NCBI RefSeq assembly: GCF_000801335.2
Contig: NZ_JSEH01000013.1
Span: forward strand, 62,001 to 126,000
Length of the DNA stretch: 64,000 bases
Direction of reading: 5' to 3'
DNA from: Desulfovibrio sp. TomC
GTDB taxonomy: Bacteria; Desulfobacterota; Desulfovibrionia; Desulfovibrionales; Desulfovibrionaceae
Every line of letters starts with the position of its first letter. Position 1 is the first letter of the stretch. Below the pieces are notes generated by a model, which searched no databases, was not told the DNA's origin, and was given only the letters and a program-made list of their open reading frames with translations. This document shows, in pieces, positions 6,374 to 52,989 of this stretch. The translations under genes and the position numbers were made by a program.

Positions 6374-7474
6374 ATGCGGGCACAAAAACGATGGGACAGG
6401 AAAGCCGTTCTGGAACTGCTGGGAGTCAGGGCGACCCGGGATAAGCAGGCCTTGTTTGACCAGGCCGACACGGTGCGCCGGGAGCGGATGGGCGATGCGG
6501 TTTATTTGCGAGGGATCGTGGAATTCTCCAATAGCTGCGCCAATGATTGCCTCTACTGCGGCATTCGGGCCGCAAACCACCGGGTGGCCCGCTACCGCCT
6601 GGACGACGCCGAAATTCTGGATCTTGCCCGGCGGATGGAGGGTGTGGGCCAGACGACCATCGTGCTGCAATCGGGCGAGGCTCCGAGTCGGGAAGGCGAC
6701 GCGGCCCTGGGGCGGTTGATCGGTCGCATCAAGGCCGAGACGGGCTTGGCCGTCACCTTGTCCGTGGGCAACCGTCCCCGCGACGTCTACGCCCTGTGGC
6801 GGGACTGCGGCCTGGATCGCTATCTCCTGCGCTTTGAGACGAGCGATCCAACGCTTTTTGCCCACCTGCACCCGGATTGCGACCTGTCTGAGCGCCTGCG
6901 CTGCCTGGGCGACCTGCGGAGCCTGGGCCTTCAAACCGGCGGCGGCTTCATGGTCGGCCTGCCCGGGGAGACCCTGGAGATTCTGGCCGACAACATCCTG
7001 CTGTGCCGTGAGCTCGACCTGGACATGATCGGCCTGGGGCCGTTTCTGCCCCATCCCGACACGCCCCTTGGCCGGTCGCAAAACGCCTACGCCCTGGACC
7101 CGGACCGGCATTTCGTGGCCCTGGCCGTGACCCGGCTGGTCAACCCCGACACCCATATTCCGGCCACCACGGCCTTTGACGCCCTGTTTCCGGGCACAGG
7201 CCGCAATCTGGCCCTTATACGCGGGGCCAATGTCTTTATGCCCAGCGCCACCCCGGTGGCCCGACGCGGGGACTACCTGCTCTATCCAGGCAAACCCTGT
7301 CTGGACGAAACCGGCGAGGCCTGCGCCCGGTGCGTGTTGTCCCGGCTTTCGACTCTGGGGCGGACCGTGGGGCAGGGGCCTGGGCATGCGCGCCGCCTGG
7401 ATCGGCCATGGCCGGGGCAACCGGCAACGCCGTGTCCCGAAGGCTGTGACCACCCCCCTTTGCCGACAGCGTAA
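6374..7474 (+). CDS. hydE: HydE-like radical SAM enzyme
   Basis: A 366-residue radical SAM protein with AGGGGAG before the ATG. The cluster motif is EFSNSCANDCLYCGIR, cysteines 55, 59 and 62 (C-x3-C-x2-C). C-terminal cysteines 309, 317 and 320 (C-x7-C-x2-C) match the accessory cluster spacing of HydE, the [FeFe]-hydrogenase maturase. GGGFMVGLPGET and GLGPFLPHPDTPL are typical of HydE/BioB-like barrels. HydE acts on a cysteine-containing iron complex during H-cluster assembly. HydF and HydG are not in this window, and the gene sits instead in a cysteine regulon with its own operator (6226-6254). It is thus HydE or a close paralogue of unknown substrate. Confidence 0.82.
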   Translation: MRAQKRWDRKAVLELLGVRATRDKQALFDQADTVRRERMGDAVYLRGIVEFSNSCANDCLYCGIRAANHRVARYRLDDAEILDLARRMEGVGQTTIVLQSGEAPSREGDAALGRLIGRIKAETGLAVTLSVGNRPRDVYALWRDCGLDRYLLRFETSDPTLFAHLHPDCDLSERLRCLGDLRSLGLQTGGGFMVGLPGETLEILADNILLCRELDLDMIGLGPFLPHPDTPLGRSQNAYALDPDRHFVALAVTRLVNPDTHIPATTAFDALFPGTGRNLALIRGANVFMPSATPVARRGDYLLYPGKPCLDETGEACARCVLSRLSTLGRTVGQGPGHARRLDRPWPGQPATPCPEGCDHPPLPTA

Positions 7475-7541
7475 AAGCCGGTTTTGCCTTTCCAAGGCGC
7501 AACGCGATCCATCTTTCGCGGCGCGGGCCGGCGAAAAAGAC

Positions 7542-7600
7542 TCGACAAACGGAAAATGGCATTTTATTACATCATCAACATGATCAAGATAGTGATTAAA
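7542..7600 (+). promoter_or_regulatory. cysK promoter with operator-like site C
   Basis: A -35 TCGACA (7542-7547), 17-base spacer and -10 TATTAC (7565-7570) are followed directly by the site ATCATCAACATG...GTGATTAAA (7571-7600). The site would cover the transcription start, the usual position for a repressor. It matches site D at 22 of 30 positions. Confidence 0.65.
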
Positions 7601-7691
7601 GCGAATGGCTCACGACCAGTCGCCGGGGAGTCCCGCCCGGGAGTCGGGTTGCGGCGGCCGCCGGCAACGGTGAAACATGGAGGGTAAGGCT

Positions 7692-8654
7692 ATGTCGCAG
7701 GTATTTACGGATGCTTCGGTGTCGGTTGGCGGTACGCCGCTAGTGCGCCTCAATCGTCTGGCCGCCGGAACCGGGGCCACGGTGCTGGCTAAGATCGAGG
7801 GCCGCAATCCGGCCTTTTCCATCAAGGACCGCATTGGCGCGGCCATGATCGAGGATGCCGAGCGGCGCGGGGTATTGCGTCCGGGCATGGAGATCATTGA
7901 GCCAACCAGCGGCAACACCGGCATTGCCCTGGCGTTCGTGGCAGCGGCCAAGGGCTACGCCATCTCGCTGACCATGCCCGAAACCATGAGCCTGGAACGT
8001 CGCCGGGTGCTGGCCTTTCTGGGAGCGAAGCTGGTGCTGACCCCGGGCGGGGAAGGCATGGCCGGGGCCGTGCGCCGGGCCGAGGCCATCGCCGCTTCGG
8101 ACACGGGGCGTTATTTTCTGCCCCAGCAGTTTAAAAATCCGGCCAATCCGGCCATTCACGAACAGACCACCGGTCCCGAGATCTGGAGCGCCACGGACGG
8201 GGCCGTGGATGTGATTGTCAGCGGCGTGGGCACGGGCGGCACCATCACCGGCATCTCCCGTTTCATTAAAAAGAACCGGGGAAAAAACATCGAGAGCGTA
8301 GCCGTGGAGCCGGCGGGGAGTCCCATCATCACCCAGGCCCTGGAGGGCGCGCCGCTTGTCCCAGGACCGCACAAGATCCAGGGCATCGGGGCCGGCTTTA
8401 TCCCGGACACTTTGGACCTGTCCGTCATCGACCGGGTGGAGCTGGTGGAAAACGACGAAGCCGTGGCCGCCTCGCGCCGCTTGGCCCGGGAAGAAGGCAT
8501 CCTGGCCGGCATTTCCTCGGGCGCGGCCGTGGCGGCGGCGGTGCGGCTGGCCGGTCGGGCGACGTATGCCGGCAAGACCATTGTGGTGGTCTTGCCCGAC
8601 GCGGCCGAGCGGTATCTGTCCACCATTCTTTTCGATGGCGTGGGCGAGGCCTAG
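7692..8654 (+). CDS. cysK: Cysteine synthase (O-acetylserine sulfhydrylase)
   Basis: A 320-residue PLP enzyme making cysteine from O-acetylserine and sulfide. Motifs: [22 protein letters not shown] with the PLP Lys, [13 protein letters not shown] (substrate loop), [12 protein letters not shown] (PLP phosphate loop) and [14 protein letters not shown] at 7692 is preferred over 7677 because GGAGGG lies just upstream of it. The partner serine acetyltransferase is 4 kb downstream at 12430-13368. A promoter and operator-like site lie at 7542-7600, so expression probably follows cysteine or Fe-S status. A truncated hesA/moeB-like frame follows. A second CysK-type domain occurs in the fusion at 49793-52093. 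Confidence 0.95.
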
Positions 8655-8655
8655 G

Positions 8656-8688
8656 GCCGGGACGTCCGTCGTCACGACGCGTCCCGGC
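8656..8688 (+). terminator. Hairpin after cysK
   Basis: GCCGGGACG (8656-8664) pairs with CGTCCCGGC (8680-8688) immediately after the cysK stop. There is no T-tract, so partial termination or mRNA protection is as likely as full termination. Confidence 0.45.
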
Positions 8689-8736
8689 TGTCCGTTGCCA
8701 TGGCGGGCGGCCGGGACGCATTCGGCCGGAGGGTGT

Positions 8737-8877
8737 ATGGAAGTGGAACGCGAGGATGCCTATTGGGAACGCTACAGCCGCAATATCCTGCTGCCGGAAA
8801 TCGGCGTGGACGGCCATGTTGTCCTTGGTACGCACCATGTGTCCGGCAACACGTATTGCCTGCGCATCCGAAAATAG
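8737..8877 (+). pseudogene. Truncated HesA/MoeB/ThiF-type gene (46 codons)
   Basis: An ATG with a good ribosome site (CGGAGGGTGT) opens a 46-residue frame ending in TAG. Residues 8-25 read YWERYSRNILLPEIGVDG, the unmistakable N-terminus of E1-like adenylyltransferases (HesA/MoeB/ThiF). The next expected element, the VVGAGGLG nucleotide loop, is missing and the rest is unrelated, so only the first exon-sized piece survives. An intact gene here would activate a ThiS/MoaD-like sulfur carrier, which fits the sulfur island. It may still be translated because its start signals are intact. Confidence 0.72.
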
Positions 8878-8914
8878 GCGGCAGCTTATTCCATATGTCT
8901 GAACTATGAAATTG

Positions 8915-8965
8915 TTGACGTCTCGGGCGCGTGAAGTTATCAACCTGATCGAGTTGATGATGAAA
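8915..8965 (+). promoter_or_regulatory. nadA promoter with operator-like site D
   Basis: A -35 TTGACG (8915-8920), 16-base spacer and -10 TTATCA (8937-8942). The -10 is embedded in ATCAACCTGATCGAGTTGAT (8939-8958), a near-perfect palindrome with ATCAAC/GTTGAT arms. It is the clearest member of the five-site family, and its position over the -10 suggests repression of nadA-nifS-xdhC-cysE. Confidence 0.7.
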
Positions 8966-9008
8966 AAGACGGGCGGCGCGGTTGCCCGACCCAGAGCAGG
9001 GAATATCC

Positions 9009-10094
9009 ATGGAATCCAAAGCGCAGGCAGCGTCCGATCCCCGGGACTGGACCGAAGACGAGGCAGCGGCGCGTATCCGCGAACTGAAAGGTCGCCTCGG
9101 CCGTGATGTCCTGATCCTGGCCCATCATTATCAGCGTGATGCGGTGGTCGCCGTGGCCGACGCCGTGGGCGATTCCCTGATGCTGGCCCAGGCGGCGGCT
9201 GCGACCTCGGCCCGGCACATCATTTTTTGCGGCGTGCACTTCATGGCCGAGACGGCCGACATCCTGACCGGCCCGGACCAGGCAGTCTATCTGCCCGAAC
9301 AGCGGGCCGGCTGCTCCATGGCCGACATGGCCACCCCCGAGGCCCTGGACTGGGCCTGGGAAAGCCTGACCCGCGCCCAGGCCGGCAGGGTCATACCCAT
9401 TACCTACGTCAACTCTGCCGCCACCTTAAAGGCTTTCGTCGGTCGCCATGGCGGCACGGTGTGCACCTCGTCCAACGCCCGCAACGTCCTTGCCTGGGCC
9501 TTGTCCCAGGACGCCAAGGTCTTTTTCTTTCCCGATGAGCATCTCGGCCGGATCACCGCCCAGGATCTCGGCGTGCCCCTTGCCGACATGCTGGTCTGGG
9601 ATCGGGGCCTGCCCCTTGGCGGCCTGAACCCCGAGGCCGTGCGGGCGGCCCGGGTCTATCTCTGGAACGGCTTTTGCGTGGTGCACCAGATGTTTTTCCC
9701 CGAAGACGCAGCCGCCTGGCGACAACAGGAGCAGGGCATCCGGGTCATCGTCCATCCCGAGTGTCCCATTGAGGTCATCCGGACGGCCGACGCCTATGGC
9801 TCCACGGAAATGATCGCCCGGGCCGTCGATGCCGCGCCGGCCGGGAGCAAGTGGGCCGTTGGCACGGAGATAAACCTCGTGGCCCGGCTGGCTGGGCGCA
9901 ATCCCGACAAGCTGGTGGTCTCCCTGTCGCCGCATCAGGCCATTTGCGCCAACATGTACCGGACGCGCCCGCTGTCCGTCTTGCGCGTGCTGGAGGGGTT
10001 GGCGGCAGGGGAGCCGCCGCCGGCGGTCCGGGTGCCTGTGAACGTGGCCGGGCCGGCCCGACTGGCCCTGGACCGCATGCTCGATCTGTCCTGA
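9009..10094 (+). CDS. nadA: Quinolinate synthase
   Basis: NadA condenses iminoaspartate with dihydroxyacetone phosphate to quinolinate in NAD synthesis and needs a [4Fe-4S] cluster. The 361-residue protein has LAHHYQRDAV near the start, the three cluster cysteines in RAGCSMADM, HPECPIEV and AICANMYRT, and GTEINLVARLA. Start at 9009 is chosen for spacing to AGCAGGGAAT and family length; an ATG at 8982 is in frame. No nadB or nadC is in the window, so the iminoaspartate source lies elsewhere. It is followed 14 bases later by a NifS-type desulfurase, the enzyme type that supplies such clusters. Confidence 0.95.
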   Translation: MESKAQAASDPRDWTEDEAAARIRELKGRLGRDVLILAHHYQRDAVVAVADAVGDSLMLAQAAAATSARHIIFCGVHFMAETADILTGPDQAVYLPEQRAGCSMADMATPEALDWAWESLTRAQAGRVIPITYVNSAATLKAFVGRHGGTVCTSSNARNVLAWALSQDAKVFFFPDEHLGRITAQDLGVPLADMLVWDRGLPLGGLNPEAVRAARVYLWNGFCVVHQMFFPEDAAAWRQQEQGIRVIVHPECPIEVIRTADAYGSTEMIARAVDAAPAGSKWAVGTEINLVARLAGRNPDKLVVSLSPHQAICANMYRTRPLSVLRVLEGLAAGEPPPAVRVPVNVAGPARLALDRMLDLS

Positions 10095-10108
10095 CCAGGA
10101 GGTGTCCC

Positions 10109-11272
10109 ATGGCAGCCGTCTATTTCGACAACAACGCCACCACCCCCCTTGATCCCCAGGTTTTCGAAGCCATGTTGCCCTATCTGCGCGAATGCTACGG
10201 CAACCCGTCAAGCCCCCACCAGTTCGGCCACCGGGCCAAAGTGGCCGTTGAGACGGCCAGGGAGCAGGTTGCGGCCTTGCTCGACTGTTCGGCCGACCGG
10301 CTCGTGTTCACCAGTTGCGGCACCGAGGGCAACAACACGGCCATCCTTTCGGCCGTGCTGGCCGATCCGGCCAAAAAACGGGTGGTCACCTCGGCTGTGG
10401 AACACCATTGCGTCCTGCGTCGGTTGGAATATTTGCGCGACCAGAGGGGGGTGGAAGTGGTCTTTCTCCCGGTGAACGGCCAGGGGCAGCTCGATCTGGC
10501 GGCCCTGGCCGAGGCGGTCACCCCGCATACGGCCCTGGTCAGCCTCATGGGGGCCAACAACGAGACCGGGGTGGTGTGGCCGATTGCGGACATCGCGCAG
10601 CTTGTGCGCTCCAGAGGGGCGCTTTTCCACTGCGACGCGGTGCAGGTGATCGGCAAGGAGCCCTTGTCGCTTAAAAATCTGCCCGTGGACTATCTGACCC
10701 TCTCGGCCCACAAGTTCCATGGCCCCAAGGGAGTCGGGGCGCTTTTTGTCGGCCGGGGAGCGCCGCTGACGCCGCTACTGTTTGGCGGCGGGCAGGAAGC
10801 CGGACGCCGGGCCGGCACCCACAACGTGGCCGGCATCGTGGGGTGTGGCCAGGCGGCCGAGCTGGCCCGGGCCTTTCTCGCAGTCGGCGGCCAGGGCCAT
10901 CTGGCCCAACTGCGCGACCATCTGGAAGAGGGCCTTCTGGCCGCCGTTGACGACCTGGCCATCCATGGCCGGGCCTCGCCGCGCCTGGCCAACACCCTAA
11001 GCCTCGGCGTTGGCGACGCACCCCAGGAAATCCTGCTGGCCGAACTTGACGACCGGGATTTTGCTGTCTCGACCACCTCGGCCTGCCAGTCGCAAAACGC
11101 CGCGCCCTCCCATGTCCTTGCGGCCATGGGTCTGCCCCAACGTTACCAGCGAAGCACCCTTCGCCTGTCGCTGTCCAGGATGAACACCCTGGAAGAGGTC
11201 GAGGCTTTCTTGACTGTCTTCCCCACAGTGGCGGCCGAGGCCCGGAGGCTGGGCCGGGTCGCCTCGGCATAA
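10109..11272 (+). CDS. nifS: Cysteine desulfurase, NifS/IscS type
   Basis: A 387-residue PLP enzyme that takes sulfur from cysteine as a protein persulfide. The N-terminal VYFDNNATTPLDP is diagnostic. HCDAVQVIGK, SAHKFHGPKGVG (PLP Lys), GGGQEAGRRAGTHN and the active-site cysteine in TTSACQSQNAAPSH are all present, followed by STLRLSLSRMN. AGGAGG precedes ATG 10109; the open frame further upstream overlaps nadA and is not used. It lies between nadA (Fe-S acceptor) and xdhC (Moco sulfuration partner). The likely role is sulfur supply to these two processes; a dedicated Nif-like function cannot be excluded. Confidence 0.94.
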   Translation: MAAVYFDNNATTPLDPQVFEAMLPYLRECYGNPSSPHQFGHRAKVAVETAREQVAALLDCSADRLVFTSCGTEGNNTAILSAVLADPAKKRVVTSAVEHHCVLRRLEYLRDQRGVEVVFLPVNGQGQLDLAALAEAVTPHTALVSLMGANNETGVVWPIADIAQLVRSRGALFHCDAVQVIGKEPLSLKNLPVDYLTLSAHKFHGPKGVGALFVGRGAPLTPLLFGGGQEAGRRAGTHNVAGIVGCGQAAELARAFLAVGGQGHLAQLRDHLEEGLLAAVDDLAIHGRASPRLANTLSLGVGDAPQEILLAELDDRDFAVSTTSACQSQNAAPSHVLAAMGLPQRYQRSTLRLSLSRMNTLEEVEAFLTVFPTVAAEARRLGRVASA

Positions 11273-11292
11273 ACACCAAATAGGAGCCGGCC

Positions 11293-12345
11293 ATGCGAGG
11301 TCTTATCGACATTTTAAACGCGTCTCTCGGCCGTGGGGAAAGTGTGGTGGCTGCCGCCGTCGTCGCCAAGGACGGCTCGGCCCCGGGGCCGGCCGGAGCC
11401 AGGATGCTGCTCTTTGAAAACGCAGACATCGCCGGCACAGTGGGCGGTGGTCCGCTGGAAGGCCAGGCCATAAACGCTGCGGTTGAAACCATGGCTTCCG
11501 GGCAGCCGCAAGTGCTCGAAATCGATCTTTCGGGTGCGATCGGCGACGGGGCAGACGCCATTTGCGGCGGCATCGTCCAGGTGTTTCTGGAACGCATCGA
11601 TCCGACTCCGGGCAACGTGGCGCTCTTTCAAACAGTGGCCGCGATGCAGGCGGCCAACCAAACCTGCCTGCTCGTCTCGTCGCTGGATGTCCAGGCCACG
11701 GGCGGCGGCGCACGGGCGCTGCTTTCCGGCGACGGCCGCCTGTTGGCCGGGGGCTTGCCCGATGCCGTTGTCCGCGAGGCCGGTCGGCTGGGCCACAATC
11801 TGTTCTCGCCGTCCAGGGCGGTGTGGGGGGCGGAGGCGTACTTCCTGGAGCCGTTCCCGGCAGCCGATCCCGTCTATATCTGCGGCGCGGGGCACATCGC
11901 CCGGCCGACCTGCCAGATTGCGGCCATGGCCGATTTCCGGGTCATTGTTCTGGACGACCGGGCGGAGTTCGCCAGCCCCGAACGCTTCCCGTTGGCCAAT
12001 GAGGTGGCCGTGCTGCCCGCGTTTGACGATTGCTTTGCCGGCCGCAGCCTCGACGCCGCCAGTTCGGTGGTCATCGTCTCGCGTTGCCACAAGCAGGATC
12101 GCAAAATCCTGATCAATGCCCTGCACACGGACGCAGGCTACATCGGCATGATCGGATCGAGCCGCAAGGTGGTGGCGGTTTTGGAAGAACTGATCGAGGA
12201 GGGGTTTTCCCGGCAAAACGTGGCCAGAACCCACGCCCCCATTGGTCTGCCCATTGGCGGCGACACGCCTGTGGAAATCGCCGTTTCCATCGTGGCCGAA
12301 CTCATCAAGGTCCGCACCGCCCGACGTGAGCGTCGCCCCGTGTGA
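11293..12345 (+). CDS. xdhC: XdhC/CoxF-family molybdenum cofactor sulfuration protein
   Basis: A 350-residue two-domain protein. The N-terminal XdhC/CoxI domain has SAPGPAGARML and GTVGGGPLEGQA. The C-terminal Rossmann domain begins YICGAGHIARP and has VIVLDDRAEF, YIGMIGSSRK and THAPIGLPIGGDTPVEIAVSI. In the known family XdhC binds molybdenum cofactor and accepts sulfur from a NifS-type desulfurase for insertion into xanthine dehydrogenase-like enzymes. The desulfurase gene lies 20 bases upstream, which supports the same handover here. No xanthine dehydrogenase is in the window, so the client enzyme is unknown. Confidence 0.92.
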   Translation: MRGLIDILNASLGRGESVVAAAVVAKDGSAPGPAGARMLLFENADIAGTVGGGPLEGQAINAAVETMASGQPQVLEIDLSGAIGDGADAICGGIVQVFLERIDPTPGNVALFQTVAAMQAANQTCLLVSSLDVQATGGGARALLSGDGRLLAGGLPDAVVREAGRLGHNLFSPSRAVWGAEAYFLEPFPAADPVYICGAGHIARPTCQIAAMADFRVIVLDDRAEFASPERFPLANEVAVLPAFDDCFAGRSLDAASSVVIVSRCHKQDRKILINALHTDAGYIGMIGSSRKVVAVLEELIEEGFSRQNVARTHAPIGLPIGGDTPVEIAVSIVAELIKVRTARRERRPV

Positions 12346-12429
12346 TCGTGCGGCCCCGCACTTTTTTTCGATGCAGTCGCGTTGGCCGGGGCATTTCACC
12401 CGTGTGCCTGTTCATCCCGGAGGTCCGCC

Positions 12430-13368
12430 ATGTCTGAATTTCGACAACAGGCCAAGATCAACAGCGTCCTGGAGCTGACAACCGAGCAATTGTGCGATCC
12501 GGCTTCTTACGAAAAGGTCTATCACCGGCCCCTGCACGACGAGCCCATGCCGTCGGTTGCGGCCCTGTCCGAACTGATGGACAGGCTTCGGGCCGTCCTT
12601 TTCCCGGGCTATTTCGGCAACTCGAGCGTCAGCCCGGAGAGCATGCGCTACCATATCGGGGCGAACCTGTTCGAGGTGGACCGCCTGCTGACCGATCAGG
12701 TCCGCCGGGGGTACTGCTTTTTTTGCGAACTGGAACGGGGCGGGGAATGCCAGGACTGCGACGCCCGGGCCAGACGGCTGACGGGAGAGTTTCTTGGCGC
12801 CCTGCCGCAGCTGCGGGAACTGTTGGCTGAGGATGCCCAGGCCGCCTACGAAGGCGACCCCTCGTCGCGCAGTCCGGGCGAGACCATTTTCTGCTACCCA
12901 AGTCTCGTCGCCCTGACCCATTACCGTGTGGCCCATGTGCTCCATACCCTTGGCGTGGACCTCATTCCGCGCATTCTGACCGAAATGGCCCACGCCGCGA
13001 CAGGCATCGACATCCATCCCGGCGCGGTGATCGGCCGCCGGTTTTTTATTGACCACGGCACCGGCACGGTCATCGGCGAAACCTGCATCATCGGCGACAA
13101 TGTGCGGCTCTATCAAGGCGTGACCCTTGGAGCCAAAAGCTTTCCCAAGGACGGGCAAGGCAGGCTCGTCAAGGGAGGCGCACGCCATCCGGTGGTCGAA
13201 AACGACGTGGTGATCTATTCCGGGGCAACCGTGCTCGGGCGCATCACCATCGGCCAGGGGGCAGTCATTGGCGGCAATGTCTGGGTGACAACCGATCTGC
13301 CGCCGGGGGCGCGCATCTCACAGCAGCGCCCCCTGGGCGTGCCGCTTGTGGATGGCGGCGGGATCTGA
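12430..13368 (+). CDS. cysE: Serine O-acetyltransferase (EpsC type) with extra cysteine knuckles
   Basis: This enzyme acetylates serine to O-acetylserine for cysteine synthase. The 312-residue protein has the left-handed beta-helix hexapeptide repeats: TGIDIHPGAVIGRRFFIDHGTG, GETCIIGDNVRLYQGVTLGA, and ATVLGRITIGQGAVIGGNVW. GGAGG precedes ATG 12430. Around residues 95-115 it carries YCFFCELERGGECQDCDAR, a C-x2-C-x7-C-x2-C pattern that looks like a zinc or Fe-S knuckle and is not part of classical CysE. It ends the nadA-nifS-xdhC operon. Lacking the classical C-terminal tail, it may bind CysK differently from E. coli CysE. Confidence 0.92.
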   Translation: MSEFRQQAKINSVLELTTEQLCDPASYEKVYHRPLHDEPMPSVAALSELMDRLRAVLFPGYFGNSSVSPESMRYHIGANLFEVDRLLTDQVRRGYCFFCELERGGECQDCDARARRLTGEFLGALPQLRELLAEDAQAAYEGDPSSRSPGETIFCYPSLVALTHYRVAHVLHTLGVDLIPRILTEMAHAATGIDIHPGAVIGRRFFIDHGTGTVIGETCIIGDNVRLYQGVTLGAKSFPKDGQGRLVKGGARHPVVENDVVIYSGATVLGRITIGQGAVIGGNVWVTTDLPPGARISQQRPLGVPLVDGGGI

Positions 13369-47898: not shown

Positions 47899-49668
47899 CT
47901 ACGCCGCCCAGGACCCGGACGGGGCCAGGCAGATGTCTATTTCCCGGGTTTTGGTCAAAATGCGCTGGCGGATGGCCTTGAACGCCGCCAATTCCTTGAC
48001 GCCGTAGCGGGCCTTGGTATGGACCAGCCCGGCCAGATCCATGATCTCGTTGTACAGGTAGGGCATGTAGAGCGGATCGTGGCGGGTGAAGAACTGAATC
48101 TGGGACAACAGCTCGCGGATTTCGCCCTGGTGCTTGTCGGCCTTGCGCACGAGTTTTTCCAGTCGCCGCGAGGCGTTTTTGAGCGACGTGGCCCAGGCGT
48201 CGGTCTTGGGCGAAAATACCGGCCGGGTACGCGGCTGGGAGGCCCGGTTAAGCGCATCCAGGAACACCTCTTTGGCAATGCCCTGGCTGACCAGCAGTTC
48301 GCCGGATTCGAGGTCGTCCCGGCCGATGTTGACGGCCCCGTCAATGACGACGCCGCCGCCGTAGAGGTTGAAGAAACCGGCCCGGGAGTTGGTAATATCC
48401 TTTTCGATATCCCGCTTGGCGGCCAGGAAGCCGAGGTGGGTATAGATGGCCTCGCCGTGCAGATTGGTGAGCTTCACGTCTTCGTGCGGGTTGTAGGTAT
48501 GGACCCACACGGCGTTGTGGTGACCGGCAACGTGGGTGGTGGAACCCTTCCAGGACAGGTCGCAGCCAGCCATGATGAAGCGTTCGGCTCCGGCCCAGGC
48601 GAGAAAGCGTTCCAGGGTGACGGAGACGTTGCCGCCGGCGTCGAGGACCAGTTCCTGGTCCTTGAGCACGTAGGTGCCGATGCCGCCCTGGGTCCACAGC
48701 GGTATTTTGGGGCCGGGATAGCGGGCCAGGACGCCCGGAGCCATCTTGGTGGAGTAAATAAAGGGGATATCGGCGACAAAATTCGGGTCGGCCAGATTGT
48801 CCAGGCTACTTAGCATGTTGTCGTTAAAGTCGATGGCCAGGCACAGATCGGGCTTGATGCCCAGGCGTTCCAGGGCCGGCAGGGTCTGCAGGGCGGCGGC
48901 GTAAAAGCCTTTGTCCCGGTGGCGGCGCAGCAGCGGGGCGAAGTCGGCCAGCGACGGTCCCGCGCCCAGGAGCACGGCCGTCAAACCTTTGGCCATGCCG
49001 GCCATTCGGGCCAGACTGCCTTCGTTCATGGCCCGGGCGTAGTTGCGAAGCTCGTTGCCGACCATGACTTCCTGCTTCTGGCGCAGCGTGGTCAGATCCA
49101 CCGACAGGTTTTCGAGCTTGGCTTTAACCAGGGCGGTCAGCCGGGAATATTCCGGGCCCATCTGTTTGCAGGCCATGTCGTTTCGCAGGTAAATGCGTGA
49201 AAAAAGGAAGCTCACATCGAGATTTTGCAGGGCCGACTCGATGGCGGGAATCTCGGGGGGCACAAAGCGCAGCTTGCCATGGGCCAAAAACGGCCGATAA
49301 TCGGTTTGTCCCAGGCAGGCCAGCAGCATTTCCGGCCGGGGTTCCATGACCAGAACCTTGTGGGAGTCGGGGGTGCCGGTCAGCACATGGTTGAGACCAT
49401 AGCCAAGGGCCGTGCCGATAATGATGGTGGCTGCGCCTTCGAGCTTTTCCGTGGGCCGCCAGTCCCTATAAAAGAACGGCGGCGGCAGCTTGCCAAAAAG
49501 GCTTTGCCCGTCGTCCATGCGCCAGTCGATGACGCCGCCCGGGTTGCGGAAAAGCCGTTCGTGGACGATGGCCGGATCAGGATTGCAGCCGGCCAGCCAG
49601 CGGCCCGTCGGGTCGCCGGACTCGGCCAGGAAGGCGAGATTGTCGGCAAGGTACTTGTTGATCTCCAT
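47899..49668 (-). CDS. Maf/DUF115-family protein (6-hydroxymethylpterin pyrophosphokinase MptE-like)
   Basis: 589 residues from ATG 49666-49668. The central DUF115 domain has TAVLLGAGPSLADFAPLLRR, LCLAIDFNDNMLSS, and AGCDLSWKGSTTHVAGH, the Rossmann-like glycosyl-carrier fold of motility-associated factors. Maf proteins transfer nonulosonic acids to flagellin. No flagellar or sialic-acid genes lie nearby, so the acceptor is unknown. Confidence 0.85.
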   Translation of the reverse strand: MEINKYLADNLAFLAESGDPTGRWLAGCNPDPAIVHERLFRNPGGVIDWRMDDGQSLFGKLPPPFFYRDWRPTEKLEGAATIIIGTALGYGLNHVLTGTPDSHKVLVMEPRPEMLLACLGQTDYRPFLAHGKLRFVPPEIPAIESALQNLDVSFLFSRIYLRNDMACKQMGPEYSRLTALVKAKLENLSVDLTTLRQKQEVMVGNELRNYARAMNEGSLARMAGMAKGLTAVLLGAGPSLADFAPLLRRHRDKGFYAAALQTLPALERLGIKPDLCLAIDFNDNMLSSLDNLADPNFVADIPFIYSTKMAPGVLARYPGPKIPLWTQGGIGTYVLKDQELVLDAGGNVSVTLERFLAWAGAERFIMAGCDLSWKGSTTHVAGHHNAVWVHTYNPHEDVKLTNLHGEAIYTHLGFLAAKRDIEKDITNSRAGFFNLYGGGVVIDGAVNIGRDDLESGELLVSQGIAKEVFLDALNRASQPRTRPVFSPKTDAWATSLKNASRRLEKLVRKADKHQGEIRELLSQIQFFTRHDPLYMPYLYNEIMDLAGLVHTKARYGVKELAAFKAIRQRILTKTREIDICLAPSGSWAA

Positions 49669-49792
49669 GGTCCCATCCTTGGTTTGCTGCCTGGCCTCAA
49701 GCAAATTTCCTGCCACTCTTGCCGGTTGACGATTTTTTGCCTACCACGTTTCCTGTCCGGCCATGACCGGATTTTATCCTGCGAGGCATGCC

Positions 49793-52093
49793 ATGATTCA
49801 TGATTCCGTGCTGTCCCTGGTCGGCAAGACCCCGCTTGTGCGCATGGGCCGGGTGTGTCCCAACCCGGCCGTGACCCTGTGCGCCAAAATCGAGATGCGA
49901 AACCCCGGCGGCTCCATCAAGGACCGCGTGGCCCTGGCCATGATCGAGGCGGCTGAACGCGCCGGCGAATTGACGCCCGGACGCACGGTCATCGAGGCCA
50001 CCTCCGGCAATACCGGCATCGGGCTAGCCATGGTCTGCGCCGTCAAGGGCTACAAGTTAAAGCTCCTCATGCCGGCCTCGGCCTCGGAGGAACGAAAGCG
50101 CATCATGCGGGCGTATGGCGCGGAAATCGTGCTCACCCCGGGCAACCTCGGCACCGACGGGGCCATTGAGGAGGCCTATAGGCTGGCCCGGGAGGAACCC
50201 GAGCGCTACGTGCTCATGGACCAGTTCAACAATCCGGCCAGCATCGAGGCCCACTACGCGGCCACGGCCGTGGAGATTTTCGAGGCGTCCGAGGGCCGGG
50301 TCACCCATGTGGTCGCGGCCCTTGGCACGTCGGGTACGGCCATGGGGCTGGTCAAGAAATTGAAAGAACTCAATGCGGCCATTGAAGTCATCGCCGTGGA
50401 GCCCCGGCCCGGCCACAAGATCCAGGGCCTTAAAAACATGCAGGAGTCCTATCCGCCGGGCATTTTTGACAAGCATGCCCTGGACGCCATTGTGCCGGTT
50501 GAGGACGACGAGGCCTTTGCCATGGCCAGGCGTCTGGCCCGGGAGGAAGGGCTTTTGATTGGCATGAGCGGCGGAGCGGCCATGGCTGCGGCCACGCGGC
50601 TGGCTTCGGGACTGGCTTCGGGGCTGGTGGTGGTCATTCTGGCCGACAGCGGCGAGCGTTATCTGTCCACGACGCTTTTTGCCGCGCCCGAGAAAAAAGG
50701 CGTGGCTCTCGGCAGCGTCGGTCCGGCCGCGCCGGTCTATCTCGACCCGGCTTCAGCGTCGCCCGGTCTTTTCACCTTTGGCCCGCCCCTGTCCGATCCC
50801 GGCGATCTGGATGCCTGGCGGCGGGTGGTCGTTCTCGACGTCCTGGCCCGGGCCTTGACCCGGGGCGGGGGCCGGCCGACCCTGGCCGTGGGGCTGGCCG
50901 ATCTCGACGACCGCTGCCTGGAAGCCTCCCGGGCGGCCGGGCTTAAGTGCCGGGAGTTTGCCGCCGCGGCCCGGGAGCGCGTGGCCGGTTATGCCGGGCT
51001 TTTGGGCGTGGCCGGGGCCGCCTTTCCCCTGGCCGGCGACGCCCTGGACGAGGCCCTGGCCATGACCCGCAAGCTCATGGACAAGGGGCTGGCCTATGAG
51101 AAACTGCGCAGCGTCTATTTCGACGTGGCCCGGGACAAGGCCTACGGCCGGCTCCTTGGCCTGGACATGACCAAGCTGGCCCTGGGCAAGACCGTGGACC
51201 TCGATTCGTACGCCAAGGACCATCCCCGGGATTTCACCCTGCTTAAGCGCGTCAGTCTCAAAGACCTCAAGGCCGGCGATATCCTGGTGACCCCCTGGGG
51301 CAACGTGCGCCCGAGTTGGTTTTTGCAGATGGCGGCGGCAGCGGCCAAGACCCTGCCGGCCGTGACCGTAGTCGTGGCCGACGAGGATAAGACCTTTCCC
51401 CACCTGGAAAACCTGCGGGCCATCTGGGCCGGCGGGGCCGGGCTTTCGCCGGCCGCCTGGCTGGCCGGGGGCCGGGTGTCGGGCCGGGACGGCATCGAGG
51501 GTGTGCCGCGTCTGGACGACCTGCTGGCTCTTGGCGTCCATCCCCTGGCCATCCGGGCCTGGCTGTTGTCCACGAGCTACCACAAACCGCTCTCCGCCAC
51601 CCCCGATGCCCTGGCCATGTGGGAGCGAAATCGCAGCCGCATCCAGGAGTTGGCCGCCAACCTGACCCTGGCGGCAACCGGAGACGGCGCGCCAGGGCAG
51701 ATTGCCGCCGGTGAAGCCGAGCGCCTGGAAGCGTCCCTGGAGGCGTCCTTGGCCGACGATCTGGCCGTCTACCATTGCTGGCCGGCGCTTTTTGCCTTCT
51801 GTCGGTTTGCCAATGCCGCCCTGGCCGCCGACACGCTGGCTCCGGGCGACGCCTCGCGGCTTTTGGCCGCCCTGGCCCAGGCCGACAGCGCCCTGGGATT
51901 GCTCGACGCCGCCCGTCTGCCTGTTGCGCGTCCGCTGTGGCCGATCGAGGCGACCCGACTGTGCGCGGAGCGGGCAGCGGCCCGGGAAGCCAGGGATTTC
52001 GCCCGGGCCGACGCCCTGCGGCTGGCCATCGAATCTCTTGGCTACCGGGTTGAAGACGCGGCCGACGGGGCGCGGCTTTTCCCGGTGGGGTGA
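49793..52093 (+). CDS. Cysteine synthase fused to a degenerate cysteinyl-tRNA synthetase
   Basis: A 766-residue fusion. Residues 1-300 are a full cysteine synthase: LVGKTPLVRMGR, GGSIKDRVAL (PLP Lys43), EATSGNTGIGLAMV, ALGTSGTAMGLV and GMSGGAAMAAA. Residues 325-766 align along the whole of CysRS, including LADLDDRCLEASRAAG, the PWGNVRPSWFLQMAA segment, TFPHLENLRAIW, LSTSYHKPLS and the terminal ARDFARADALRLAIESLGYRVED. The synthetase motifs are gone: no HIGH, no KMSKS (DGIEG in its place), and the zinc ligands are replaced (Cys to Phe/Met, the ENE Glu to Leu). The C-terminal half is probably non-catalytic. It may bind cysteine, tRNA or PLP enzyme products; this is inference. Confidence 0.9.
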   Translation: MIHDSVLSLVGKTPLVRMGRVCPNPAVTLCAKIEMRNPGGSIKDRVALAMIEAAERAGELTPGRTVIEATSGNTGIGLAMVCAVKGYKLKLLMPASASEERKRIMRAYGAEIVLTPGNLGTDGAIEEAYRLAREEPERYVLMDQFNNPASIEAHYAATAVEIFEASEGRVTHVVAALGTSGTAMGLVKKLKELNAAIEVIAVEPRPGHKIQGLKNMQESYPPGIFDKHALDAIVPVEDDEAFAMARRLAREEGLLIGMSGGAAMAAATRLASGLASGLVVVILADSGERYLSTTLFAAPEKKGVALGSVGPAAPVYLDPASASPGLFTFGPPLSDPGDLDAWRRVVVLDVLARALTRGGGRPTLAVGLADLDDRCLEASRAAGLKCREFAAAARERVAGYAGLLGVAGAAFPLAGDALDEALAMTRKLMDKGLAYEKLRSVYFDVARDKAYGRLLGLDMTKLALGKTVDLDSYAKDHPRDFTLLKRVSLKDLKAGDILVTPWGNVRPSWFLQMAAAAAKTLPAVTVVVADEDKTFPHLENLRAIWAGGAGLSPAAWLAGGRVSGRDGIEGVPRLDDLLALGVHPLAIRAWLLSTSYHKPLSATPDALAMWERNRSRIQELAANLTLAATGDGAPGQIAAGEAERLEASLEASLADDLAVYHCWPALFAFCRFANAALAADTLAPGDASRLLAALAQADSALGLLDAARLPVARPLWPIEATRLCAERAAAREARDFARADALRLAIESLGYRVEDAADGARLFPVG

Positions 52094-52116
52094 GCGGCTC
52101 ACAACGGGAAGGAAGC

Positions 52117-52989
52117 ATGGCGGAATATCTGGCCACGGGCTTTGCCGGGCTTGACCGGACAGTCGATCCCGACGTCTACGTGCGGTGTCTGCGCTACCTG
52201 GGCGACGCCCCGGGAATGCGGGCCATCAAAGACGCAAGCATAACCCGGCTGGGACTTTCCCCGGGTGTTGCGGCCCTGGAGGTCGGATGCGGCCTGGGCG
52301 TCGAGGCGGCGGCCATGGCGGCAGCCACCGGGAATGCCGGGTTGGCGGTCGGACTGGACGCCAGCCAGACCATGCTTCGCCGGGCTGCGGCAGATATGGG
52401 CGCAAGAGCCGGCAACCGGCCCGTGCTGACCGCCGGGGACGGCGCACGCCTGCCCTTTGCCGACGAGGTGTTTGCCGCCTGCCGCATCGAGCGCACCTTG
52501 CAGCATGTGGCCGATCCCGGCGCGGTGCTGGGCGAGATGGCCCGGGTGGCGCGTCCCGGCGGCGTGGTTTTGGCGGTCGAGCCGGACTGGGGAACTTTTG
52601 TGGTGGACAGCCGGCATGTCGCTGTGACCCGGCGGCTGGCCCGGTTTTGGTGCGACAGCTTCCGTTGCGGCTGGATCGGCCGACGCTTGGCCCGGCTCAT
52701 GGCCGCAGTCGGGCTGGTCGGAATTGAAATTGTCCCCCACTCGCTGGTGTTGCGCCGCCTTGACGCTGCCGAGGCCGTCTACAGTCTGTGCGAGACAGCC
52801 GACCGGGCCGCCGCCTCCGGCCTCGTGACCCGGGCCGCTGCCGCCTCGTTTCAGACGGAACAACGCCGTCTGGATGCCTCAGGCGTCTTTTTTTCGAGCC
52901 TGACCTTTTTTATGGCCGTGGGCAGAAAGCCGGCGGCCGGGGAGTGCGGGAGAGACGAGGAAGAAGGCCTCCGGCGGCCGGGGGCCTGA
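52117..52989 (+). CDS. Class I SAM-dependent methyltransferase (UbiE/arsenite-like)
   Basis: 290 residues. SAM motif I VAALEVGCGLGVEAAAMAA, motif II VGLDASQTML, and LPFADEVFAACRIERTLQHVADP are standard for the Methyltransf_11 fold. The substrate is unknown. It follows the fusion gene by 23 bases and may be cotranscribed. Its last residues (EGLRRPGA) are encoded by gene-end repeat copy 7. Confidence 0.88.
   Translation: MAEYLATGFAGLDRTVDPDVYVRCLRYLGDAPGMRAIKDASITRLGLSPGVAALEVGCGLGVEAAAMAAATGNAGLAVGLDASQTMLRRAAADMGARAGNRPVLTAGDGARLPFADEVFAACRIERTLQHVADPGAVLGEMARVARPGGVVLAVEPDWGTFVVDSRHVAVTRRLARFWCDSFRCGWIGRRLARLMAAVGLVGIEIVPHSLVLRRLDAAEAVYSLCETADRAAASGLVTRAAAASFQTEQRRLDASGVFFSSLTFFMAVGRKPAAGECGRDEEEGLRRPGA

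Follow-up and report, generated by a model that had tools for sequence, protein, structure and literature searches.

The locus described here raises the question of why a cysteine synthase should be joined, in one polypeptide, to a cysteinyl-tRNA synthetase (CysRS) from which the catalytic motifs have gone. The gene lies in a window of 64,000 nucleotides (the whole stretch of DNA that was analysed) from Desulfovibrio sp. TomC, and in the original prediction it was taken to encode a CysK-type domain running into a catalytically dead CysRS, the tail of which might hold cysteine or a persulfide beside the synthase or sense the charging of tRNA-Cys. The core of that prediction stands, as the gene was found to be one frame of 766 codons with matches to both the PALP and the tRNA-synt_1e families and with broken catalytic motifs. 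We propose, at a probability of about one half, that the product is a cysteine synthase, with O-phosphoserine as its probable substrate, which carries a pseudo-synthetase that would bind tRNA-Cys and tune the synthase to tRNA-Cys charging. The features of the locus are the following.

49793 to 52093, + strand: fusion gene, 766 codons plus stop, a single open frame; same architecture in 103 distinct proteins
49793 to 50683, + strand: CysM-like cysteine synthase domain, residues 1-297, with the PLP lysine K43 and the TSGNTG and GTSGT loops
50426 to 50440, + strand: GLKNM segment, residues 212-216, with invariant K214
50765 to 52090, + strand: pseudo-CysRS region, residues 325-766, with a full CysRS fold in the predicted structure
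50804 to 50815, + strand: remnant of the HIGH motif, residues 338-341, reading DLDA
51254 to 51271, + strand: conserved, fusion-specific SLxDLK segment, residues 488-493, with an invariant R486 before it
51485 to 51505, + strand: position of the lost KMSKS loop, reading RDGIEGV, placed by alignment with true CysRS
51983 to 52057, + strand: kept anticodon-domain residues R731, F736, D740, R743 and D755, equivalent to R427, W432, D436, R439 and D451 of E. coli CysRS

A frame scan found no internal stop between the ATG at 49793 and the stop at 52093, and an in-frame ATG upstream at 49763 is the less likely start because the relatives begin at MIHDSV. The Pfam PALP family matched residues 8-284 (E 1e-68) and tRNA-synt_1e residues 330-545 (E 3e-21); a CysS_C match at residues 718-758 was sub-threshold, and the NCBIfam cysS match at residues 338-762 (E 4e-27) fell far under the family cut-off. 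Two separate proteins or an internal start, which had been held out as an alternative, were ruled out by the single frame in 103 distinct proteins, and chance or misassembly by its recurrence in about 100 further genomes, where the fusion is likewise one frame of about 750-800 amino acids. The stop codon of the fusion overlaps by 4 bases with a SAM-dependent methyltransferase gene (52090-52986, +) that is not conserved as a neighbour, and a gene for an MptE-like (PF01973) protein lies divergently upstream (47902-49716, -). One neighbour family holds the divergent upstream position in 9 of 69 fusion loci. No conserved operon was found around the fusion, any given neighbour being common to at most 9 of these 69 loci, nor was an RNA regulatory element or tRNA gene found within the 64-kb window.

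The N-terminal half is an intact cysteine synthase, as had been predicted, but it is CysM-like rather than CysK-like, both in the tree and in its profile scores, which were higher for CysM than for CysK, with the PALP and cysKM matches over cut-off. The catalytic PLP lysine K43 was invariant in 78 sequences, and the best solved-structure matches of this half were CysM and CysK (Z 43-45). Stand-alone CysK enzymes, many of them products of genes next to cysE, have an insert and an IQGIGAGF segment that are both missing from this half, where an invariant GLKN(M) is found instead. K214 of this segment aligns with R220 of M. tuberculosis CysM (its sequence checked against 3dki/3dwg), a position which we take to have a role in O-phosphoserine use. 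Since E. coli CysM, an O-acetylserine enzyme, is also basic there, K214 is a hint and not a proof of O-phosphoserine use. In the tree the synthase half groups with M. tuberculosis CysM, which is dependent on O-phosphoserine (PMC12910592), and with a CysM-like enzyme from a genome that has no cysE. We infer that the synthase half makes cysteine from sulfide and an activated serine, which is probably O-phosphoserine. Among the sampled sequences its nearest unfused relatives were two CysM-like enzymes that stand alone and carry lysine at the R220 position (L159 of genome G074, which is without cysE, and L160 of genome G076).

The state of the C-terminal half was read from 103 distinct fusion tails, aligned with E. 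coli CysRS and with 19 true CysRS from the same order. All 19 of these true CysRS have intact HIGH and KMSKS motifs and zinc ligands; both HIGH histidines, an intact KMSKS and the second KMSKS lysine, K269, were each found in 0 of 103 fusions. In the window copy, for which the loss of HIGH, KMSKS and the zinc ligands had been predicted, HIGH reads DLDA, KMSKS is absent and the ligands C28, C209 and E238 read F, M and L, but the fourth ligand, H234, is kept. The Desulfovibrionales fusions, the window copy included, have lost three of the four ligands, while the full set persists in 21 of 103 fusions on deep branches, 11 of which also keep the KMS triplet. On the tree, at least five changes within the fusion clade are required to explain where the zinc set is missing, by which measure the site has been eroded several times independently. 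The tail is thus predicted to be a CysRS no longer able to activate cysteine or charge tRNA, and the classical, zinc-held form of cysteine binding that the original prediction allowed for is unlikely in the window copy, because only one of the four ligands is left there. Of 156 positions invariant in the 19 true CysRS, 96 were kept in under half of the fusions. The pocket residues D69, R202, W205, H234 and N237 were almost invariant, and the fusions have gained invariants that are absent in true CysRS (P at 30, R at 43, R at 186 and L at 189), together with a near-invariant K at 193. The residues at 186, 189 and 193 surround the SLxDLK segment, which was conserved across 78 fusions and is different in true CysRS.

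The anticodon domain was retained. All five of its key residues were present together in 100 of 103 fusions, when an aromatic residue is allowed at 432 and lysine at 427; singly, R427 (R/K) was kept in 101, W432 (aromatic) in 103, D436 in 103, R439 in 103 and D451 in 102. Within the anticodon mini-domain 6 of 10 true-CysRS invariants were kept in at least 95% of the fusions and none fell below half (p 0.009). R427, W432, D436 and D451 are the residues with which E. coli CysRS reads the tRNA-Cys anticodon (structure 1u0b). With the anticodon reader kept and amino-acid activation, often along with zinc-held cysteine binding, given up, tRNA-Cys would be the ligand that matters. From this conservation we infer that the tail binds tRNA-Cys, and the sensing of tRNA-Cys is, of the roles first suggested for the tail, the one that we favour. 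Part of the conservation may be structural, for example in a pairing of D436 with R439.

An AlphaFold2 model of the fusion, built from 78 family members, had a mean pLDDT of 92.6 and a pTM of 0.69, the latter leaving the placement of the synthase half and the tail relative to each other uncertain. Residues 303-765 of the model aligned with the tRNA-bound E. coli CysRS (1u0b) over 436 of 461 residues (Z 41.7), the anticodon domain included, and 392 residues of the tail aligned with 8qhp at 2.5 Å. As modelled, the tail is a real CysRS fold with its anticodon-binding domain, as was foreseen.

The predicted fusion was sought in other genomes of the window's phylum, the scope of the survey. Of 297 genomes sampled there, 108 have it, in each case as a single long frame, and so do 97 of the 245 high-quality genomes of that sample. 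A scan with patterns taken from the window protein, which reaches close relatives, found it across the Desulfovibrionales at 46-94% identity; from these relatives the host is placed as a Solidesulfovibrio-like sulfate reducer. The fusion tails form one clade, to which true CysRS from these organisms do not belong (support 100), the synthase halves form one group (support 92), and the distances in the two halves correlate at 0.71, a value reached in 0 of 1000 permutations. These trees and correlated distances point to a single ancient fusion, and so to an old family of single origin. Among close relatives the tail is under purifying selection (dN/dS 0.16-0.29) and evolves faster than the synthase half (0.09-0.14). 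No plasmid record covers 80% of the tail. A break of the frame within the tail was seen in two genomes and may reflect sequencing errors or recent losses. In one of them (G072, locus L172, break at about 2127-2133) the anticodon domain follows in a different frame and still has its key residues, and a like split of the tail is seen in the genome holding Desulfovibrio sp. DV (L046, L175), where the distal part is also conserved in a different frame.

Genome context was scored in 53 fusion genomes for CysK/CysM-type enzymes and for cysE. In 18 of them the fusion is the sole enzyme of this type, and cysE is missing in 17 of the 18, as scored with one profile and with the proviso that an unrelated acetyltransferase could stand in for CysE; the match in the remaining genome was weak and shorter. 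The other 35 genomes have a further stand-alone CysK/CysM-type enzyme and all 35 have cysE (Fisher p 6e-13 for cysE absence versus fusion alone). The fusion can therefore stand without O-acetylserine synthesis, and it must be the cysteine synthase of those 17 genomes unless an unrelated route exists. Phosphoglycerate dehydrogenase was over cut-off in 14 of the 17, with a partial match in one more. Of the 18 genomes where the fusion is the only enzyme of the CysK type, only 5 gave a match to classical serC, so that other aminotransferases would have to supply O-phosphoserine. Many genomes keep the fusion beside complete CysK/CysE pairs; that of the window is one of these and has two stand-alone CysK besides the fusion, as well as the separate complete cysS that was looked for, located elsewhere (L001) and having lost neither HIGH nor KMSKS nor any of the four zinc ligands. 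A second cysteine-synthesis pair lies in the window itself, in a cluster at 6374-13365 (+) with genes for a radical SAM protein, cysK, nadA, a class-V aminotransferase (NifS-like), XdhC and a cysE-like hexapeptide transferase, the cysK (7677-8651, +) being of the O-acetylserine type. One genome (G024, 98% complete) gave no match, at the thresholds applied, to either a CysK/CysM-type enzyme or cysE, and belongs either to a cysteine auxotroph or to an organism with another route.

The fusion, its spread and single origin, the motif loss, the retention of anticodon residues, the purifying selection and the co-absence of CysE are computed, and a mechanism can be proposed around them in which tRNA binding is taken from conservation, the substrate is likewise a proposal, and regulation, in its existence and its direction, is argued from genome context together with the parallels of GCN2 and HisZ. 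In it, the CysM-like domain would make cysteine from sulfide and, most likely, O-phosphoserine, while the C-terminal domain, no longer activating cysteine, would still use its anticodon domain to dock tRNA-Cys. Uncharged tRNA-Cys, on building up, would bind the tail and change the activity of the attached synthase, and cysteine output would thereby follow translational demand. CysE is the usual feedback point of cysteine synthesis, and in genomes relying on the fusion alone the tail could stand in for that feedback. It is possible, at somewhat less than even odds, that the enzyme's own polypeptide reads the charging of the tRNA for its product, a direct feedback from tRNA-Cys at the protein level that would replace CysE control across the phylum. 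A precedent for such a switch is GCN2, which uncharged tRNA activates through a HisRS-like domain (PMC4335047).

The main rival is that free cysteine, bound in the old pocket, feeds back on the synthase, with tRNA irrelevant. HisZ, a dead HisRS paralogue that regulates ATP phosphoribosyltransferase, is its precedent (PMC10795190). HisZ is a precedent for a regulatory pseudo-synthetase in the favoured reading as well, but also a counterpoint to tRNA sensing, since it shows that a synthetase without catalysis may respond to the amino acid and not to tRNA. The near-invariant pocket, the full zinc site in 21 of the 103 fusions and the need for feedback where CysE is missing are consistent with such a sensor. 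However, the zinc site, which gives CysRS its cysteine specificity, has been lost several times, in the window copy too, and the anticodon residues have not; as a cysteine sensor would leave the upkeep of a full anticodon domain unexplained, we regard it as unlikely, at roughly half the weight given to feedback by tRNA-Cys. The kept tRNA-binding residues could also serve in a scaffold, the tail tying the synthase to tRNA-Cys, to true CysRS or to the ribosome so that newly made cysteine passes on to aminoacylation with no kinetic control involved, and the fusion-specific R43, R186 and K193 with the SLxDLK segment could form a protein interface for this purpose. Yet there is no partner gene beside the fusion, no neighbourhood is common to more than 9 of the 69 loci and cysS lies elsewhere in the genome, making such channelling rather improbable.

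Decay of a functionless tail, carried along by the synthase, would account for the continuing erosion of catalytic motifs, the frameshifts in two genomes and the faster evolution of the tail. It is very improbable in view of one open frame in 103 distinct proteins across the phylum, purifying selection, the newly gained fusion-specific invariants, the invariant anticodon residues and the confident full fold. Slightly more doubtful still is a SepCysS-like conversion of an aminoacyl-tRNA-Cys to Cys-tRNA-Cys: tRNA-Cys-binding residues are indeed joined to a sulfhydrylase that probably accepts phosphoserine, but SepRS (O-phosphoseryl-tRNA synthetase) was detected in 0 of 25 fusion genomes, where positive controls were detected, and true CysRS was present and intact in 19 of 19 genomes examined. 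The least probable of all is a cysteine persulfide synthase in the manner of CysRS/CARS, an idea of the original prediction that is appealing for a PLP enzyme and a CysRS fold in one chain of sulfide-rich bacteria. Persulfide synthesis by CysRS depends on lysines K73, K76, K266 and K269 of the KIIK and KMSK motifs (PMC5660078), most of which the family no longer has (another residue stands at K76 in the majority of fusions, and K269 was seen in 0 of 103); the window copy has none of the four.

In our reading, a synthase tuned by tRNA-Cys charging, the fusion shares features with several known systems. Like the fusion tail, MshC and CysRS* are derived from CysRS. Both are active enzymes, unlike the dead tail, and CysRS* is without an anticodon domain (PMC9437257). 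MshC is not known to have this domain either, and neither is joined to a cysteine synthase. Reviews of synthetase paralogues, as far as searched, give MshC and CysRS* for CysRS and not the fusion (PMC9437257). No description of the fusion was found in the open-access literature, a scope outside which most subscription papers fall, nor any mention in the accessible parts of papers on cysteine-tRNA routes, and domain databases may already show the architecture unremarked. M. tuberculosis CysM clusters with the synthase half and has a common L-(K/R)-N-M segment, but it uses the sulfur carrier CysO and has no synthetase domain, whereas the fusion has a synthetase-derived tail. The SepRS-SepCysS pathway links tRNA-Cys to cysteine synthesis, as is proposed for the fusion, which by contrast has no SepRS, no active synthetase part and a PLP domain of the CysK/CysM type. 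The copies range from nearly intact to fully eroded active sites, so that losing catalysis and keeping tRNA recognition could be told apart by experiment.

The closest parallels are regulatory. In the short-form ATP phosphoribosyltransferase HisZ-HisG, as in the fusion, a synthetase paralogue that has lost catalysis works in the pathway that makes its own amino acid. HisZ, however, is a subunit of its own, of class II (HisRS), and binds histidine, while the fusion has a class I CysRS joined to the enzyme with its anticodon-reading residues kept. The HisRS-like domain of GCN2 is, like the tail, a synthetase-like domain fused to an enzyme, and reports uncharged tRNA, as is proposed here; GCN2, however, is a eukaryotic protein kinase that responds to starvation for any amino acid, whereas the enzyme of the fusion makes the amino acid itself and the tail keeps anticodon-specific residues. 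By these analogies we propose that the fusion belongs with the synthetase paralogues turned regulators of amino-acid supply. If so, it would suggest an answer as to how bacteria without serine acetyltransferase control cysteine synthesis, and a synthetase relic would have become a sensor of translational demand fused to a biosynthetic enzyme, bridging the logic of HisZ and that of GCN2.
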